64,000 nt of DNA, from positions 1-64,000 of the IMG/VR virus record IMGVR_UViG_3300020439_000004; one strand, given 5' to 3'. Position numbers and translations under genes: made by a program. Below the pieces are notes generated by a model. It had not been told where the DNA came from, searched no databases, and worked only from the letters and a program-made list of their open reading frames with translations. Every line of letters begins with the position of its first letter. Within the stretch, counting starts at the first letter, position 1. Origin of the DNA: a virus. Shown piece by piece: positions 5,874 through 45,077 of the stretch.

Positions 5874-8800
5874 TGCCAACAGTAACAGGAGACAATTTCT
5901 ATATAAATAAACACACACTCCAGTTTAGAACTGGGGAAACAGGAGTAGCTTCTATTGTTTATGATAAAACTGATGAAAGTATTAGTATTGCTAATGCTGG
6001 TACAGGTCAAATAAGCATAGGAGATGCAGGTGGTGATATTTATATCGGAGATGGAACTACTGAGACTGATATTATTTTTGAGCAGAATGGAGCTATAAGA
6101 GCTTTAACAAACAAAACTTTAAAGTTAGGTCAGGGTGATTCTGATGTAAAAGTAGAAGCGCAAAACTTTTTTGTTACTGGGGATGCAGGGTTTAGTGGGA
6201 CAGTTACAATAAATGGCAATACGGTTTTAACAGGAGCAAGTGGAGCAGAGGGTGATACTCTTCAAAGCGTTACTGACAGAGGGGCAATTACAACTAACAA
6301 CCTAGAAATACAAGGTGCTGGTTCAAAGTCTCTTACTGTCGATTCAACTGATGGTCATGCATCCTTAGTTATAGATAGGCACAGCACAAGTTATGATGCT
6401 AATTTGTCATTCCAAACAAATGGAGCTACAAAGTGGAGATTGTGGAATAATTCAAATGATACGACTCTTTCAATAAGAGATGAGGTCAACGCCTCTAACG
6501 TAATGACATGGGAAACGGGTGGCAAAGTTGGTATAGGAACAGATAATCCATCAACAAGGTTGCAGATAGATAACGGAGGAGCAGGAACTGTAGATAGTGC
6601 TTATTCATTGGCAATACTAGGTGATGGTATTGATGGGATTCAAATAATTAGTAGTTCTTCACACCAAGGAAGAATTGTGTTTGGAGATAATAGTAGTAAT
6701 GCGATAGGACGTATTAATTACGACCATTCAAATGACAGTATGTCTTTTGTAACTAATGGATCTGAAGCAATGCGCATCAACTCAAGTAGCAATGTTGGTA
6801 TTGGGACAACTAGTCCAGATTTTGAGTTAGATGTTGATGGAGACATTGGCATGAATGGAAAACTATACCACAATGGAGATCATAATACTTATATAGGTTT
6901 TGAAGCTGATGATATTAAATTAAGAGTTGGCGGGACTGATATAGTTAATGTAGATTCATCTAAAAACGTAGGTATAACAACAAATAGTCCGACATCAAGA
7001 CTTCATGTTTATGGTGGAGATAACACGGGTCTTTTTGGGTCAATAAGAAACGACTCAAAAAACAGAATGAACATGAAGGTCGCAATGGGTTCGACCACAC
7101 GTTACATTGGAACAGTTGAGCAATACGGAAATGGAGATTCATCAGGTTTTACTATCAGAATATATGATGGAGCGGAAAAAGTATTTAGAATTGTTCGTGT
7201 TGTTGTTGTAAATAGTGGAGGAACTAATGTTCCTAGGGCAACTGTTGAAGGTGGCGGAGAAGACACTGATATTCATATAAATTTAGAATATAAAAATAGA
7301 GATGGAGATGCGACTAAGACAGACTTCTTTCTTGTTCCTACATCAAAAAGCTTTACTCAATATGTTGAAATAGAAGGATACATATTAAGAGATACTGGTT
7401 GGAATACAACTTCACTTACAAGCGTTAGCCTTGATGATGACCTTGCTTTAAATATTCTTGATTCTGTCAACGGTAGTAGAGTTGGTGTTGGAACTACAGA
7501 TCCATCAGCAAAGCTTCATGCTGAAGGTTCCATGATAGTCAAGGGTGATGTTGGTTGGGCTGGAACAGATAATCAAGATGGAGCTATATTTCTAAACACT
7601 GCTGGAAGAGCATTACTTGGAGCTTTCTCCACTAGTTATGCAAGACCTTTAATTAGAACTGCTAGTAATTACATAGAGCATGGTAGCGCAGGAACTAGTT
7701 TAATTAACGGTTTTAGATTTTATGCAGGAAGCACAACTGCCACTGTTGGAACATATGATTTCTATACAAGTGGATCTAATAGCAGATTACGTATAGAAAA
7801 AGGCGGTAATGTCGGCATAGGAACAACTAATCCAGATCTTAAATTACACATTCATGGAGGAGGAATTTATGCTACTCCTGTCTCATACGCTGCCAATGCT
7901 GATGAATGGTTATTAAGAGCAGGAGCTAATAATAATGCTGGTTGGGATTATGGTGGCTTAAAAGTTAGAGTAAACAGCGCAGGGAATCCACGCCTTGCAT
8001 TTATGGGATTTAGTAGCAATGAAGTTTTTGCTATAGAAGGGACCAATGTCGGTATAGGGACAACTGATCCATCAGAAAAACTCCATGTGGATGAAGGTTA
8101 TATACTCGCTGATGGAGCGTCTACAAATCACGGATTTGAATTAAGAAGAGATTCTGCTGACACTTTCCAAATAAGACATTTAGGCGGTAATTTTACTATA
8201 AATAACCTTACTGATAATCGTAAAGATTTATCTATTGATGGAAATGGTAATGTTGGTATAGGAACAGATATTCCAGCTACGATTCTTGATTTAAGTAAAC
8301 AAGACAATCTTGTTGAACTTTCAATAAGGAGAAAAGGATCTGACCCAAGCGCCAATACAGATATAGGTGGCATACAATTTAAAACAGATTATACCTCTAC
8401 TTCACATGACGTAGGGAGAATACTTGTAAAAACAAACTCCAGCCCTTACAGGACTGACATGAAGTTTTCCACTAGATCAACAGCGGGAACTGAAATGATT
8501 GGTATGACTTTGCATGGCACAAGTAGTAGTGGTCCATATCTTGGTGTTGGAACAGAGACTCCATCTTCATTGCTACATGTAAGAGGTAGTGACCCCGTAT
8601 TAAAAATAACAGACTCATCTACAACTGATAATAGTGCAACTCTCTGGCTCCAAGAAAGTGATACTTATGGAGTAAAACTAAATTATGAATCTAATGGTGG
8701 TAATGGTGGAATAGATTATTTCACTATAGATACTTTATCTGCCACTGGTGGTAATAATCAAGCAGGTAATCACGACAATGCTTGGGGTATAGATCAACGA

Positions 8801-20420: not shown

Positions 20421-20787
20421 AAAATCAATTTTTATTCCAATCTTCCTTTTTGTTTCCTTGTTTTGCAGGGCAGACGATCATTGGGGAGAGGCTCCACCTG
20501 TACCAGAGCTACAGATAAACCATGATATATTTTCTGGTATAGTAACAGTTGGTTGGATGTCTGATTCGACTTTTGATAAGCCTATTTGGTATATTGTAGA
20601 AGTAAAGCAAGTAGATGAAGATAGAGTGGCTGATCCAGAATTCTTTTGGTTTAGACCATTTGTGCCAATACAGAGTAATTTTAATGAGTTTATTACAATA
20701 AGATTGGACTACAGAGATGAGTCTGGTTTAGTAAAAGATTGGACAAGAGCGGAGATGTTCAGAATAAGAGCAATGTGGGGAGCGTAA
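20413..20787 (+). CDS. Secreted beta-sandwich protein with signal peptide
   Basis: 124 residues. MNKKSIFIPIFLFVSLFCRA is a clear signal sequence; Cys18 (SLFC) is close to, but not, a lipobox. The mature part has alternating strands and many aromatic residues (GIVTVGWMSDS, PIWYIVEVKQV), fitting a fibronectin-III-like domain. It starts 8 bases inside the previous gene. It could be an outer spanin-like or host-envelope protein; unproven. Confidence 0.55.
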   Translation: MNKKSIFIPIFLFVSLFCRADDHWGEAPPVPELQINHDIFSGIVTVGWMSDSTFDKPIWYIVEVKQVDEDRVADPEFFWFRPFVPIQSNFNEFITIRLDYRDESGLVKDWTRAEMFRIRAMWGA

Positions 20788-20789
20788 AT

Positions 20790-22175
20790 ATGGACGAAAA
20801 GAGATTTTACGTTTACGCATATCTCCGTGAAGATGGGACTCCTTATTACATAGGTAAGGGTTGTAAGAATAGAGCTTATGACTATCATCGTCATAATATA
20901 AAACCGCCTAAAGATAAAAATAGAATAATTTTTTTAAAAAAGGGGCTAACTGATCAAGAGGCATACGATTATGAAAAAGAAATGATTTCTTTTTACGGTA
21001 GGAAAGACTTAGGGACTGGTATTTTAAGAAACTTATCAGACGGAGGTCACGGCCCATTGAACCCCTCCCCAGAATCAAGAAAGAAAAACTCTGAAAGAAA
21101 TAAAAAAGCATATGCTGAAGGGAAGCATCCTTTATCTAAATTGACCAAATTTGAAAGAGTCATTTATGGTCATCTAGCGACAGAAGCTCGCAAAAAATCT
21201 GAATGGTTCAAAGAAAACCCAGAATATTGGGGTGGTTCCCTTGGGAGAACGCCAGAAAAACATAAAAAAGATAGTAAAAAAGCGTGGCAAAAAGGGCTTT
21301 CGAAATGGATGGAAGATACTAAAGATGATCCAATTTGGCAAAAATACAGAAAAGAACTTTCTAGAAAAAATGGATTAAAAAATGCTAAACTAGGGATAGG
21401 TATATGTGGATTATCATCTGAAGAAAGAAGTAATATTATTAAAAATTTTTTAGCAGATCCCGTAAAAGGCCCAAAACAAAGAAAACTTTTATCAGAAAAA
21501 GGGAAAAAGCAATATGCACAGGGAATAGGTATAGCATCTGAAGAAGCAAAACAAAAATCAAGAGAAGTTAATCTTGAAAGAACTGGACATGATTTTACAG
21601 TTAGAAGTCCAGATGGGAAAATACATACTGGTCATGGCATAAAACCATTTGCTAGAAAACACGGAATACCCATGGAGTCATTCAGGGCTTTAGTGCAGGG
21701 CAAAACTCCAAAAGTTTGTGGTTGGACTTTACCTGATTATGATGAATATAAAGTGTTGAATTTATTTAGAGAAGGTTTATCAAAGGAAGAAATAAAAGAA
21801 ATAGTTGGCTACGGAGTTACTTATGTAGATAGCCACTTCCCAAAACCTGAAGAGGGTTACAAATGGTGCATATATTGTTTTGAGCAAAAACTTTTTTGTG
21901 AATTTACTAAAGATGAAACACGAAAAGATGGGTATAGAGAAAAATGCAGTCAGTGTAATCACACTCCTGAAGAATGGAGTCGAAAACAATTACTTAAAAA
22001 AGGTTATAAAAAATGTACAATTTGTGGAGAAGAGTTGTTAATAAATTCTACTAATTTTCACAAAGATGGCAAATATCCTTCTGGAGAAGTTAAATATAAA
22101 GGAGCTTGTAAAAAATGTATTCGTCCGATTGCCAGAAAAGCAGCCAGAGAAGCCTATAAAAAGAAGCTGAATTAA
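20790..22175 (+). CDS. GIY-YIG homing endonuclease with NUMOD and zinc-finger C-terminus
   Basis: 461 residues from the ATG at 20790; a longer in-frame reading would run back into the previous gene. The GIY-YIG core is at the N-terminus (YVYAYL 7-12, YYIGKG 19-24, Arg28). A NUMOD-like DNA-binding module follows (KPFARKHGIPMESF, KTPKVCGW). The C-terminal ~100 residues have several Cys pairs (WCIYC, CSQC, CTIC, CKKC) for zinc fingers. Many Lys/Arg between modules fit a DNA-gripping linker. Free-standing: I see no intron around it. It would nick or cut allelic phage DNA to spread itself. Confidence 0.85.
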   Translation: MDEKRFYVYAYLREDGTPYYIGKGCKNRAYDYHRHNIKPPKDKNRIIFLKKGLTDQEAYDYEKEMISFYGRKDLGTGILRNLSDGGHGPLNPSPESRKKNSERNKKAYAEGKHPLSKLTKFERVIYGHLATEARKKSEWFKENPEYWGGSLGRTPEKHKKDSKKAWQKGLSKWMEDTKDDPIWQKYRKELSRKNGLKNAKLGIGICGLSSEERSNIIKNFLADPVKGPKQRKLLSEKGKKQYAQGIGIASEEAKQKSREVNLERTGHDFTVRSPDGKIHTGHGIKPFARKHGIPMESFRALVQGKTPKVCGWTLPDYDEYKVLNLFREGLSKEEIKEIVGYGVTYVDSHFPKPEEGYKWCIYCFEQKLFCEFTKDETRKDGYREKCSQCNHTPEEWSRKQLLKKGYKKCTICGEELLINSTNFHKDGKYPSGEVKYKGACKKCIRPIARKAAREAYKKKLN

Positions 22176-22186
22176 AATAAATATAA

Positions 22187-22729
22187 ATGCATATTGATAT
22201 AAAAAGTTTAGTCGAAAAGGGCAAAGCAAAAAAAATAAAAAATCACGAAGATTATATTGTGACAAAAAATGGTAGAGTTTTTAGTTGTAAATCTAATAAA
22301 TTTTTAAAACCTTATTTATGTGGCAAAAAAGGTAAAGAGTATAAAACTGTTTCTTTATATAAAAAAGGTAAGGAAGATAAAAGAACTGTACACTCCTTAG
22401 TTGCTGAAGCTTTTATTGGGAAAAGACCAAAAAATAAAATTGTTGGTCATATAGATGGTAATAGGTTTAATAATCATGCAGACAATCTTGAATATGTAAC
22501 AGAGTCACAAAATCGTGTGAATACTTATTATAGAAAAGCGAATAAAAGTAGTCCTTACATGGGAGTTTGTATATCCAAAGGTAAAATTCGTGCTACAACA
22601 TATCGTGACGAGGGAGAGTTTTTTGATTGTGAAATAGAGGCTGCAAAAGCATATGATAGAGCAGTTTACAAAAAATTCGGCAAACACGCATTATGTAAGT
22701 TGAACTTTCCAGAATTAATAGATGAATAA
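22187..22729 (+). CDS. HNH homing endonuclease with AP2 domain
   Basis: 180 residues. A NUMOD4-like N-terminal part (EDYIVTKNGRVFSCKSNKFL) precedes an HNH core (VHSLVAEAF, VGHIDGNRFNNHADNLEYVT; His69, His88, Asn97) and a C-terminal AP2-type DNA-binding domain (SSPYMGVCISKGKIRATTY, then EIEAAKAYDRA). This order is standard for free-standing phage HNH/AP2 enzymes. Confidence 0.85.
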   Translation: MHIDIKSLVEKGKAKKIKNHEDYIVTKNGRVFSCKSNKFLKPYLCGKKGKEYKTVSLYKKGKEDKRTVHSLVAEAFIGKRPKNKIVGHIDGNRFNNHADNLEYVTESQNRVNTYYRKANKSSPYMGVCISKGKIRATTYRDEGEFFDCEIEAAKAYDRAVYKKFGKHALCKLNFPELIDE

Positions 22730-23394: not shown

Positions 23395-23907
23395 ATGAAA
23401 GCTAAACCACTACCACCGCTAGAAGAATTAAAAGAATTCTTAGATTATAATCCAGATACAGGGATATTTACTTGGATAAAAAAACCAAGTAAAAAAATAA
23501 AAGTTGGTCAACAAGCTGGAAAAATGCATACTAAAGGTTACATCCAGATTACATTTAGAGGATTTTTATATCTTGCTCATAGATTAGCTTATTATATGTA
23601 TCATGGTGTAGACCCACTGGAAAACCTTGTAGACCATAAATACGGGGATAAGACTAATAACAAGATTAAGAATTTAAGATTAGCGAATAAATTTCAAAAT
23701 AGTACGAATCGTGTTAATTTACCTAGTAATAATAATAGCGGTGTAATAGGAGTGTGTTGGGATAAAAACGCTAAAAAGTGGAGATCGCAGATTGTAGTAA
23801 ATAAAGTTCAAAAACACTTAGGATTTTTCATTAATAAAGAAGATGCAATAAAAGCCCGTAGAGAAGCAGAGATAAAATATTTTGGTGACTTTCGGGGCAA
23901 TATTTAA
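23395..23907 (+). CDS. HNH homing endonuclease with AP2 domain
   Basis: 170 residues. An HNH core lies at ~55-100 (AHRLAYYMYHG, LVDHKYGDKTNNKIKNLR), where the usual DHINGD is DHKYGD. An AP2-type domain follows (GVIGVCWDKNAKKWRSQI, then NKEDAIKARREAE). Third homing-type enzyme within 3.2 kb. Confidence 0.8.
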   Translation: MKAKPLPPLEELKEFLDYNPDTGIFTWIKKPSKKIKVGQQAGKMHTKGYIQITFRGFLYLAHRLAYYMYHGVDPLENLVDHKYGDKTNNKIKNLRLANKFQNSTNRVNLPSNNNSGVIGVCWDKNAKKWRSQIVVNKVQKHLGFFINKEDAIKARREAEIKYFGDFRGNI

Positions 23908-25460: not shown

Positions 25461-25530
25461 TAAACAAATAAGTGTGTTGTAGTTTTTCTTATTATTTATA
25501 TTATTACTTTATTTAGAGGTTAACTTCTGA

Positions 25531-25606
25531 AAGTCATTGAGGCTTAGGGAGTTACACCGCTGGCGGTATGCCGCGCCCGCCTAACTCGTTGGTATCCAAC
25601 GACTTA
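25531..25606. repeat. A-B-A palindromic element E1
   Basis: A diverged 25-base A palindrome (25531-25554), a GC-rich B part with GCGGTATGCCGC, and an A palindrome TAACTCGTTGG-TAT-CCAACGACTTA (25582-25606, one mismatch). The stop codon of the minus-strand gene 25552-25734 lies inside its left arm. Confidence 0.75.
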
Positions 25607-27726: not shown

Positions 27727-27803
27727 TAACTCCTTGAGTATCAAGGAGTTACGAAGGCGCGGCATGCCGCGCCGCCCCTAAGTCGTTGATACTTAACGAC
27801 TTA
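27727..27803. repeat. A-B-A palindromic element E2 (inverted relative to E3)
   Basis: A: TAACTCCTTGA-GTA-TCAAGGAGTTA (27727-27751, perfect 11-bp arms). B: GGCGCGGCATGCCGCGCC (27756-27773, perfect 18-base palindrome). A': TAAGTCGTTGA-TAC-TTAACGACTTA (27779-27803, one mismatch). Read on the minus strand, its B junctions match those of E3 read on the plus strand. Confidence 0.9.
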
Positions 27804-28879: not shown

Positions 28880-28956
28880 TAACTCGTTGAGTATCAACGA
28901 GTTAGGGCGGCGCGGCATACCGCCATCTTCGTAACTCGTTCAGGGTGAACGAGTTA
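28880..28956. repeat. A-B-A palindromic element E3
   Basis: A: TAACTCGTTGA-GTA-TCAACGAGTTA (28880-28904, perfect). B: GGCGG...CCGCC around GCGCGGCATAC (28907-28924). A': TAACTCGTTCA-GGG-TGAACGAGTTA (28932-28956, perfect). Its left A is identical to the solo copy at 30446. Confidence 0.9.
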
Positions 28957-28971
28957 TAGAGAAAGTTAACA

Positions 28972-29022
28972 GAACAAAAAGAAACCGCCGATAGGACAAC
29001 AACTATGAAAACCTATCGACGG
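28972..29022 (-). terminator. Intrinsic terminator after the structured RNA
   Basis: On the minus strand CCGTCGATAGG and CCTATCGGCGG pair (11 positions, one mismatch) around a 16-base loop and are followed by TTTCTTTTTG. This fixes the minus strand as the transcribed one for the region to the right. Confidence 0.8.
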
Positions 29023-29250
29023 CTCCCCTACTGGCGGGAGCGCTCCGTTGGGGCTTGCCTCCAGTATTTAGGTTTGGGATTGTTTCTCACTCTCGGAGCT
29101 GGCGGTAAATCCCTTTATAACCATACCAATGTTTCATCGTCACTTACCTACAACTTTTGTGCTGTAGGAGGCTAAGTTTAGGAAAACAGCTTGTCCGTCA
29201 TGTCAGGACTGAGGTATCTATCAAAGACCTCACTGTGTCTAAACTCGGTG
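28972..29250 (-). ncRNA. Candidate structured RNA, about 270 nt
   Basis: No plausible gene covers this stretch, but many helices can be drawn. AGTTTAG/CTAAACT (29175-29181, 29239-29245) encloses GTCC/GGAC and TGAGGT/ACCTCA hairpins as a three-way junction. ACTTA-CCTACA pairs with TGTAGG-(4-base bulge)-TAAGT (29142-29177). GGGATT/AATCCC lies at 29076-29113. TACTGG/CCAGTA (29029-29066) and CCCC/GGGG (29025-29028, 29050-29053) interleave as an H-type pseudoknot. A TATAGT lies six bases before the outer helix, though without a good -35 box, and the terminator closes the 3' end. Helices were found by eye, not by folding. No known RNA class is recognised. Confidence 0.55.
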
Positions 29251-29262
29251 ACTATACCCTTC

Positions 29263-29481
29263 CTAGGATTGTTCTGCGTTTAACGCAAATTTTTCGTTTA
29301 ATGTATTAGCGTGTTTGCGTGTCCACTTTACATTATCAATGAAGTGGTCAAGTTTATCATCTGCCACCTCTGACATTCTTTCTGCCAAGGTCTGATGTAC
29401 TACACCAAGCGCATAATTTAAAAGCGTTGCTTGGTCTTTGTTTTTCACTTCAATGCGAACTGATTCGGATGTCTTTGCCAT
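29263..29481 (-). CDS. Hypothetical helical protein (72 aa) upstream of structured RNA
   Basis: 72 residues, helical and charged (MAKTSESVRIEVKNKDQATL, then MSEVADDKLDHFIDNVKWTR). Unlike its neighbours it is not leaderless: the nearest plausible promoter lies ~100 bases upstream, giving a leader with a strong hairpin (29530-29574). It precedes the candidate RNA and terminator, so all may form one transcript. Function unknown; binding to the adjacent RNA is only a speculation. Confidence 0.6.
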   Translation of the reverse strand: MAKTSESVRIEVKNKDQATLLNYALGVVHQTLAERMSEVADDKLDHFIDNVKWTRKHANTLNEKFALNAEQS

Positions 29482-29529
29482 GTTAGTTATAGTTTTATTT
29501 TTATATTATTGTGATTGATTTTGTAGGCT

Positions 29530-29574
29530 AGGGCGACGAGACCATGATCCCCTCAGAAAAAATCTCGCCACCCT
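29530..29574 (-). promoter_or_regulatory. Leader hairpin with minus-strand G-U pairs
   Basis: On the minus strand AGGGTGGCGAGA pairs with TCTCGTCGCCCT (12 pairs, two of them G-U); on the plus strand these two positions would be mismatches. The loop has TTTTTT. It lies in the leader of 29263-29481. Confidence 0.6.
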
Positions 29575-29587
29575 TCACTATACCTAC

Positions 29588-29614
29588 ATTATACTATGAC
29601 ATCTATACTGTCAA
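29588..29614 (-). promoter_or_regulatory. Possible promoter of the 29263-29481 unit
   Basis: TTGACA (29609-29614) with TATAAT (29588-29593) at a short 15-base spacing, or TAATGT at 17. It overlaps the stop of the upstream gene. The resulting leader would be about 100 bases, unlike the leaderless neighbours. Confidence 0.45.
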
Positions 29615-30445: not shown

Positions 30446-30470
30446 TAACTCGTTGAGTATCAACGAGTTA
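30446..30470. repeat. Solo A palindrome E4
   Basis: TAACTCGTTGA-GTA-TCAACGAGTTA, perfect 11-bp arms, identical to the left A of E3, without a B part. TTGACA lies a few bases to its left on the plus strand. Bases 30342-30710 hold no gene, only E4, E5 and a short TCTAACA repeat. Confidence 0.85.
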
Positions 30471-30512: not shown

Positions 30513-30589
30513 TATGTCGTTGGTTATCAAGGAGTTACACATTCGGCGACATGCCGCGTCGTCGTAACTCCCTCAGTATCAAGGAGTTA
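30513..30589. repeat. A-B-A palindromic element E5
   Basis: Left A (30513-30537) is diverged; B contains CGGCGACATGCCGCG; right A is TAACTCCCTCA-GTA-TCAAGGAGTTA (30565-30589) with two mismatches. The left flank AAACTTCTGTATGTCGTTG matches E1, E6 and E7. Confidence 0.8.
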
Positions 30590-31563: not shown

Positions 31564-31641
31564 TAAGTCGTTGAGTGTGAAGGAGTTGCAGCCGCCGCGG
31601 TATGCCGCCGCCCGCGTAACCCGTTGATTTTCAACGAGTTA
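31564..31641. repeat. A-B-A palindromic element E6
   Basis: Left A (31564-31588) diverged; B is GC-rich around GCGGTATGCCGC; right A TAACCCGTTGA-TTT-TCAACGAGTTA (31617-31641), one mismatch. Preceded on the plus strand by TTGACA, 15 bases and ACTTACGTAAGTCGTTGA. Confidence 0.85.
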
Positions 31642-32330: not shown

Positions 32331-32407
32331 TAAGTGCTTGATTATCAACGAGTTACAGCCGCGGCGGCATTCCGCGCCCGCGTAACTCCTTGAGGCTCAA
32401 CGAGTTA
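32331..32407. repeat. A-B-A palindromic element E7
   Basis: Left A (32331-32355) diverged; B around GCGGCGGCATTCCGCGCCCGC; right A TAACTCCTTGA-GGC-TCAACGAGTTA (32383-32407), one mismatch. The TAA stop of the gene 32405-32635 is its last three bases. TTGACA lies 15 bases before its ACTTCTGTAAG flank. Confidence 0.85.
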
Positions 32408-43931: not shown

Positions 43932-45077
43932 ATGAAAATTACAATCAAAAGAACCGAAGATCAATTGGCCCTTGTGAGAGCAATGGGTTCAAATAATCGT
44001 GAGGAAGCTTATGAGGCACAAGCAGCAGTAGCTGATCTTCTTGGACCAGTGGTCTCTGAAGTAATCAACAATGCTCCAACAGTTGGAAATCTCTACACCA
44101 GCCTTTCATATGGTGAAGATGATAACCCTTCTCTGCCTTTGGATCTTTTCCACGACATCACTGATGAGGACTACATTCAGGTGTATTCTCAGCAAGTAGC
44201 TGGTGGCCTTCCATATAGCCAAGTCTTTCCTGCTCACAACGAGCTTAAGTTCAGCACTTACACACTTGATAGCGCTCTTGCGTTTGACCGTAAGTATGTT
44301 CGTAAGGCTCGTCTTGATGTTGTCAGCAAGACTTTCACTAGGATGGCTCAAGAAGTTTTACTTAAGCAGACTAAAACTGCTTTTAATGTTCTTGCAACTG
44401 CATTGGTTAAAGGACAGGGAACTTCATCAACCGCTGGTAGCCAAATTATTGGCTCTACAACTGAAAACCGTTTCGTTCTTGACGACTTCAACCGCTTGAT
44501 CACAAAGAGCAAGCGTATCAACAGCTCCTTCAATGGAGGTACTCCTGTTGGTGGAGTTAAGTCTGGAATTACGGATCTTTTAGTTTCTCCAGAAATGGTT
44601 GAGCAACTCCGCTCTATGGCTTACAACCCAATCAACACAATTGATTCAGATGGTAACTCACCAGACTCTGGTGGAGACGGTCAAGTAGCTCCAGACGTTC
44701 TTCGTCAAGAGTTATTTAGCGCCGCTGGACTTCCATCTTTCTATGGTATTAATATCATGGAGATCAATCAGATGGGTATCAACCAAACCTTCAACAAGCT
44801 TTTCGCAGCAGTTGTTACTGCTGAGGGTGCTACTGTTGTTGGTGGAGGTAACACTGGAACCTTTAGTCAGACTGATGACGAAATCGTTATCGGTATTGAC
44901 CGCAGCAAAGACGCTCTTATACGTCCTGTTGTTATCGGTGAAGGATCACCTTCAGAGTTGCAAGTTCTCGTTGATGACCAGTTCTCAGTTCGCCAGAACA
45001 AGATTGGTTACTACGGTAAAGTTGAAGAGGGTCGCATCTGCATTGATGACCGCGCTCTTATCGGACTTGCTGTTTAA
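43932..45077 (+). CDS. Major capsid protein (HK97-fold likely)
   Basis: 381 residues. An N-terminal helical region, a central SYGEDDNPSLPLDLFHDI segment, a spine-helix-like part (KARLDVVSKTFTRMAQEVLL) and a strand-rich end (IGYYGKVEEGRICIDDRALI) fit an HK97-fold capsid protein placed after protease and decoration genes. Codon choice differs from most neighbours: Arg is mostly CGT/CGC and many codons end in C, the mark of a very highly expressed gene. A strong Shine-Dalgarno precedes it and a terminator follows it. Confidence 0.85.
   Translation: MKITIKRTEDQLALVRAMGSNNREEAYEAQAAVADLLGPVVSEVINNAPTVGNLYTSLSYGEDDNPSLPLDLFHDITDEDYIQVYSQQVAGGLPYSQVFPAHNELKFSTYTLDSALAFDRKYVRKARLDVVSKTFTRMAQEVLLKQTKTAFNVLATALVKGQGTSSTAGSQIIGSTTENRFVLDDFNRLITKSKRINSSFNGGTPVGGVKSGITDLLVSPEMVEQLRSMAYNPINTIDSDGNSPDSGGDGQVAPDVLRQELFSAAGLPSFYGINIMEINQMGINQTFNKLFAAVVTAEGATVVGGGNTGTFSQTDDEIVIGIDRSKDALIRPVVIGEGSPSELQVLVDDQFSVRQNKIGYYGKVEEGRICIDDRALIGLAV

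Follow-up and report, generated by a model that had tools for sequence, protein, structure and literature searches.

A structured RNA directly downstream of a conserved phage gene is one arrangement of a mosaic of folded modules

Results

A structured RNA directly follows the stop codon of a conserved viral gene

In a viral genome, the DNA directly downstream of a gene for a 72-aa protein specifies a structured RNA that is not one fixed RNA but one arrangement of a mosaic, in which folded modules are combined differently from phage to phage. We studied this locus in the opening 64,000 nucleotides (hereafter the window) of a virus record 108,942 bases long and compared it with related IMG/VR contigs. 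The RNA runs on the minus strand from approximately position 29262 to 28970, with zero gap to the stop codon of the 72-aa gene both in the window and in the relatives. Because of this zero-gap linkage and its fixed place after the gene, we read it as a 3' UTR. Our best explanation, to which we assign a probability of about one half, is that it forms the structured 3' untranslated tail of a short mRNA for the 72-aa protein, with modules that act as recombining cassettes and protect the 3' end.

The 72-aa gene (29263..29481, minus strand, stop codon TAG) is conserved in 26 viral contigs. A PHROG search returned no match for its product, and an AlphaFold2 model (mean pLDDT 68.7, pTM 0.42) was of insufficient quality for a search by fold. 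Among INPHARED phages, we found no homologue of the window region, of one relative's array of modules, of the 72-aa protein or of the protein at 43932-45077, the only relatives being distant ones of the terminase. The lineage is probably of marine origin. Elsewhere in the window, the proteins encoded at 20739-22175, 22187-22729 and 23395-23907 resemble, by eye, GIY-YIG and HNH homing-type endonucleases.

The minus strand folds as a noncoding RNA

An earlier note had proposed that positions 28972-29250 hold a new structured RNA, and this was confirmed, with coordinates right to within a few bases. The 299-nt minus strand reaches a minimum free energy (MFE) of -92.5 kcal/mol, compared with -79.5 +/- 5.3 kcal/mol for 200 dinucleotide shuffles (z -2.46), none of which folded as low. 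The plus strand folds less unusually (z -1.85, 12 of 200 shuffles), and the arrays of eleven relatives also beat their own shuffles (z -2.2 to -4.9). No plausible gene lies in the region, as the same note had stated: stop-free frames on the minus strand span only 27-33 codons, and we rejected coding on either strand, since relatives keep no reading frame and differ by 1-nt and larger indels.

The RNA likewise fits no known class. Rfam 15 gave no match in the window at the gathering cut-off, and a permissive search gave a single chance match to a nematode family (E 7.1); RNase P, 6S, tmRNA, GOLLD, ROOL, HDV-like ribozymes and the L17 downstream element were among the families whose gathering score was not reached. 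ARAGORN found neither tRNA nor tmRNA in the window, and Rfam searches of ten relative loci returned tRNAs only. The covariation check for which the note had called revealed compensatory changes in homologues and so left its reading standing. These changes, the interchangeable GNRA and UNCG tetraloops, the minus-strand G-U pairs and the lack of an Rfam match together support a new structured RNA.

Four modules make up the RNA in the window

The array in the window comprises modules A (carrying sub-module A3), B, C and T in order of transcription. Module A (29130..29262, minus strand) is, as the note had suggested, a three-way junction; it is formed by P1, P2/P2b and P3, is recovered as the MFE fold in most relatives and is supported by pair counts, compensatory changes and a covariance model. 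P1 pairs GUCAC (29248-29252) with GUGAC (29139-29143), and P2 pairs GAGUUUAG (29239-29246) with CUAAACUU (29174-29181). P2b (ACAG/CUGU) encloses both hairpins of the 46-nt sub-module A3 (29189..29234), and P3 (29147-29168) is a CCUACAGC/GUUGUAGG hairpin with the loop ACAAAA. Across eight sequences, 99.5% of alignment cells are paired, compared with 20-37% when partners are slid, in alignments that are small, had inserts trimmed beforehand and are the same sequences from which the structure was derived. Three pairs show double-sided changes, and G-U intermediates in several pairs fix the minus strand as the transcribed one. Close relatives are nearly invariant overall, and their P1 shows no variation. 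Three relatives close P2b with a GAGA, GCAA or GUAA cap. The P2 of L004, shortened to GAGU-UUAG-ACUC, can still form a hairpin, although the MFE adopts another fold.

The covariance model of module A matches this position only, scoring 102.8 bits in the window, which was itself among the training sequences. The distant L131 was left out of the model (MAFFT misaligned its P1 and P2); L131 (GCUGG/CCAGC) and L132 carry possible distant A-like modules in the right place, with the P3 loop ACAAAA on different stems, and score weakly (E 0.21 and 2.7, respectively). A short pattern of module A gave a few chance matches in the unrelated contigs L113, L115, L118 and L119. An H-type pseudoknot around module A (GGGU/GCCU) can be drawn and is plausible as a model; its pairs hardly vary. 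Inspection by eye led us to drop the HDV-like, hammerhead and twister readings of this module, the catalytic sequences being absent.

Module B (29068..29129, minus strand) consists of the nested helices GGUU/AACC and GGGAUU/AAUCCC, and its cap differs among arrays (GAGA, GAAA or UACG on the same stem). Here too an H-type pseudoknot is plausible, with GGUA/UACC predicted to cross GGGAUU/AAUCCC, in pairs that are invariant or nearly so. Module C (29023..29067, minus strand) is a conserved 26-nt motif, GAGGNNAGCCCCAACGGAGNGCUNCC, that caps the stem ACUG/CAGU in the window and unrelated stems in three other phages: CUG/CAG in L005, GAGA/UCUC in L131 and GGGGG/CCCCC in L035. The RNA ends, as the note had anticipated, in an intrinsic terminator on the minus strand, module T (28970..29024; AGCCGUCGAUAGG...CCUAUCGGCGG then UUUCUUUUUG), a long stem with helix strands AGCCGUCGAUAGG...CCUAUCGGCGGUUUCUUUUUG that is followed by a U-run at about 28970. 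The stem of T covaries (GAUAG/CUAUC becomes GGCAG/CUGUC in L020), and its loop is exchanged in relatives.

In L035, module C sits in a hairpin upstream of the 72-aa gene. The corresponding hairpin in the window (29519-29590), probably the terminator of the preceding gene, has a loop that is exchanged among relatives, in the same place in L002-L020 and L035.

Relatives carry a mosaic of nested and relocated modules

At this place, approximately 20 contigs carry a mosaic of modules A, B, C and others, in most cases ending in a terminator, with sub-modules nested within hairpin loops. Among these arrays are A(A3)-B-C-T in L002, A(A2)-C-T in L003, A(A2 and A3)-B-C-T in L020, and in L004 a minimal A followed by a new insert, B-C-T(T2) and a second terminator hairpin. 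In the window, L020 and L121, sub-module A3 occupies P2b, but the sister phage L002 has it in P3. Other phages bring in modules D, E, F and G: A(A2)-D-E-F-C-T in L011, A-D-E-F-C-T(T2) in L014, G-D-E-F-C-T(T2) in L005, and G-D-E-F followed by another terminator in L006. L017 to L019 carry E-U, and L008, L012 and L016 have only the F hairpin and at most one further terminator. In L121 and L150, A(A3)-B-C is followed by four successive terminator-type hairpins, which in L121 (approximately 8001-8300, equal to L150) share the stem theme GCCGUCG...CGGCGGUUU under four different loops. Two findings speak against assembly chimerism: L017, L018 and L019, which come from three separate datasets, have identical arrays, and modules recur across many contigs. 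Directly after the array, L009 (6474-6546) and L048 (5564-5636) have a tRNA gene whose anticodon, judged by eye, is CAT; inspection by eye places one there in L010, L015 and L028 as well.

Module membership cuts across gene groups. The core of module A and module C are each 85-100% identical where adjoining genes are 68-80% identical, and module E is identical in every pair compared. Modules A, A3, B, C and T each occur once in the 108,942-base record, every match to module A sits directly downstream of the 72-aa gene on the same strand, as expected of a structured 3'-UTR element, and across the viral collection module matches are confined to this locus, apart from the few chance ones of the short A pattern. 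Modules A and C had no match in GTDB genomes. Judging from the simple relatives L008 and L012, the locus may have begun as the gene plus a terminator hairpin, with modules added before that hairpin and others inserted into its loops.

A modular 3'-UTR RNA shuffled by recombination is the most likely account of this pattern. Recombination between related phages would swap whole modules while keeping their helices, and would also nest small hairpin modules in loops and move them between loops. Against the 3'-tail reading, L008, L012 and L016 keep the gene with hairpin terminators only, so the gene does not require the modules; in addition, the promoter before the ATG in the window is weak, and P1 of module A is invariant in close relatives.

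The same mosaic could instead reflect selfish mobile hairpins that enter terminator loops and 3' UTRs and persist there because they are harmless, a reading to which we give roughly one chance in five. 

It would explain the nested insertions, the same element in different contexts (A3 in either of two helices, P2b and P3, and C on four stems unrelated to one another, including the upstream hairpin of L035) and the dispensability of modules in L008 and L012, and it has a precedent in mitochondrial genomes (PMC2800124). However, each module occurs once per genome, at this locus only, rather than in dispersed copies as REP/RHE elements do; loops and junctions match the stems in their degree of conservation; and target-site duplications were not found by eye. 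A purely selfish origin is thus possible but a poor account of the one-locus confinement and of the loop conservation. An equally tentative extension of the recombining 3' tail is a dedicated RNA-cassette locus, at which related phages would exchange small folded domains of RNA downstream of a single conserved gene, comparable to their exchange of protein domains in tail fibres; the assembled RNA would act on factors of the host or of rival phages, with its specificity set by the modules chosen.

The RNA probably shares a transcript with the 72-aa gene

By placing TATAGT six bases before the outer helix, the note had also implied a stand-alone RNA gene with its own promoter there. The new structured RNA and its terminator stood up to analysis; the separate promoter did not. 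The last two bases of TATAGT belong to that outer helix, P1, and the hexamer is confined to module A, being absent in arrays that begin with other modules (L005, L006, L009 and L017). It has no -35 element at 16-18 nt and no extended -10, and transcription beginning 6-7 nt downstream would leave out the conserved 5' strand of P1 together with GGGU. A trans-acting small RNA that starts at TATAGT and is ended by terminator T is therefore improbable, even though TATAGT never varies within module A and looks like the -10 elements before other genes here, and the terminator is strong: of the two marks of a stand-alone small RNA gene, the intrinsic terminator is present and the promoter is lacking.

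A promoter-like sequence does stand just before the ATG of the 72-aa gene (29486..29515, minus strand), with TATAAC at 29486-29491 and a weak -35, ATCACA, at 29510-29515 (spacer 18); a consensus promoter scan did not detect it. Relatives have better matches in the same place, such as TTGACA-17-TATAAC in L006. Because TATAGT is unsuitable as a start and promoter-like sequences precede the ATG, we infer from sequence a near-leaderless mRNA of approximately 510 nt, the second half of which would be the structured RNA. On the 3'-tail reading, RNA polymerase would start just before the ATG, read the gene, transcribe the three-way junction of A, the pseudoknot-like B and the capped hairpin of C, and stop at T. 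The dense 3' end would both terminate the transcript and resist 3'-to-5' decay, and as a result the mRNA, or a stable RNA derived from its 3' UTR, may accumulate; single modules might also bind host or phage factors.

Module F, found in relatives and missing in the window, is 98.5% paired with six doubly changed pairs, and none of 500 shuffles reaches its covariation score. Its loop reads UUN[X CUAG Y]CA, in which X and Y change together (UA, AU, GC, UG), leaving the 6-mer a palindrome or close to one (UCUAGA, ACUAGU, GCUAGC); examples of this candidate kissing-loop dimer site are the hairpins of L005 (approximately 6406-6448), L007 and L137. This loop and the GNRA loops in the modules would suit an RNA that self-assembles through kissing loops in the manner of GOLLD or ROOL, but the window lacks module F, the covarying X and Y could also form an intramolecular pair, and GOLLD and ROOL give no Rfam match, which leaves self-assembly with little probability. 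Least likely of all is a role for module A in processing or regulating the transcript as a small ribozyme or a ligand-binding domain: its compact junction, possible H-type pseudoknot and strongly conserved joining segments and ACAAAA loop would fit, but a search permitting E<=10 matched it to no family of ribozymes or riboswitches, the base joining P3 to P1 is C or U where HDV-like ribozymes have a catalytic C, and a site 3' of a gene is unusual for a riboswitch.

The locus differs from known structured RNAs

By the tests made, the RNA belongs to none of the systems that it most resembles. The L17 downstream element (RF01708) is a structured RNA that probably lies within the 3' UTR of a single conserved gene (PMC2864571); it shares with the present RNA the position after one gene, GNRA loops and strand-fixing G-U pairs, but it has one fixed architecture and follows a ribosomal protein gene in Lactobacillales and Listeria, whereas here a changing mosaic gives no Rfam match. 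GOLLD and ROOL are phage-encoded, ornate, pseudoknotted RNAs of several hundred nucleotides (PMC12286853). The present RNA is also phage-encoded and ornate, and some arrays adjoin a tRNA gene (L009, L048); unlike GOLLD and ROOL, it is approximately 300 nt long, forms the tail of a protein gene and has shuffled modules, with no sequence or covariance-model match to either. Mitochondrial repetitive hairpin-forming and double-hairpin elements lie in loops and intergenic regions and are not removed from RNA (PMC2800124). Like these and the yeast GC clusters (PMC4478555), the locus places small hairpin modules in loops, but those elements are dispersed in many copies, with stems more conserved than loops, whereas here each module has one copy at one locus, with conserved loops and junctions.

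In the open-access full texts searched, we found no account of phages with structured-RNA modules that can be exchanged. Phage noncoding RNA families, to our knowledge and in the literature searched, are each described as a single family of one architecture. At this one locus, folded RNA modules recombine, nest in loops and relocate between helices with their folds kept, which makes the modular evolution of RNA domains directly testable. Such mosaicism may explain why RNAs of this kind have been missed by family-by-family searches, and the new compact motifs A, B, C, E and G are offered for structural work.

Other repeats lie nearby and elsewhere in the record

Two 25-bp palindromes, TAACTCGTTGA...TCAACGAGTTA, with starts 52-53 bp apart and a GC-rich centre, make up a dispersed repeat that occurs between genes in this region only, at 25530-25606, 27727-27803, 28880-28956, 30513-30589, 31564-31641 and 32331-32407, with a single palindrome copy at 30446-30470; similar copies lie behind the arrays of relatives. 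At positions 73083-73348 of the record (in L122), an AT-rich intergenic stretch carries repeated TAAGGTTACGATAT motifs and strong hairpins.
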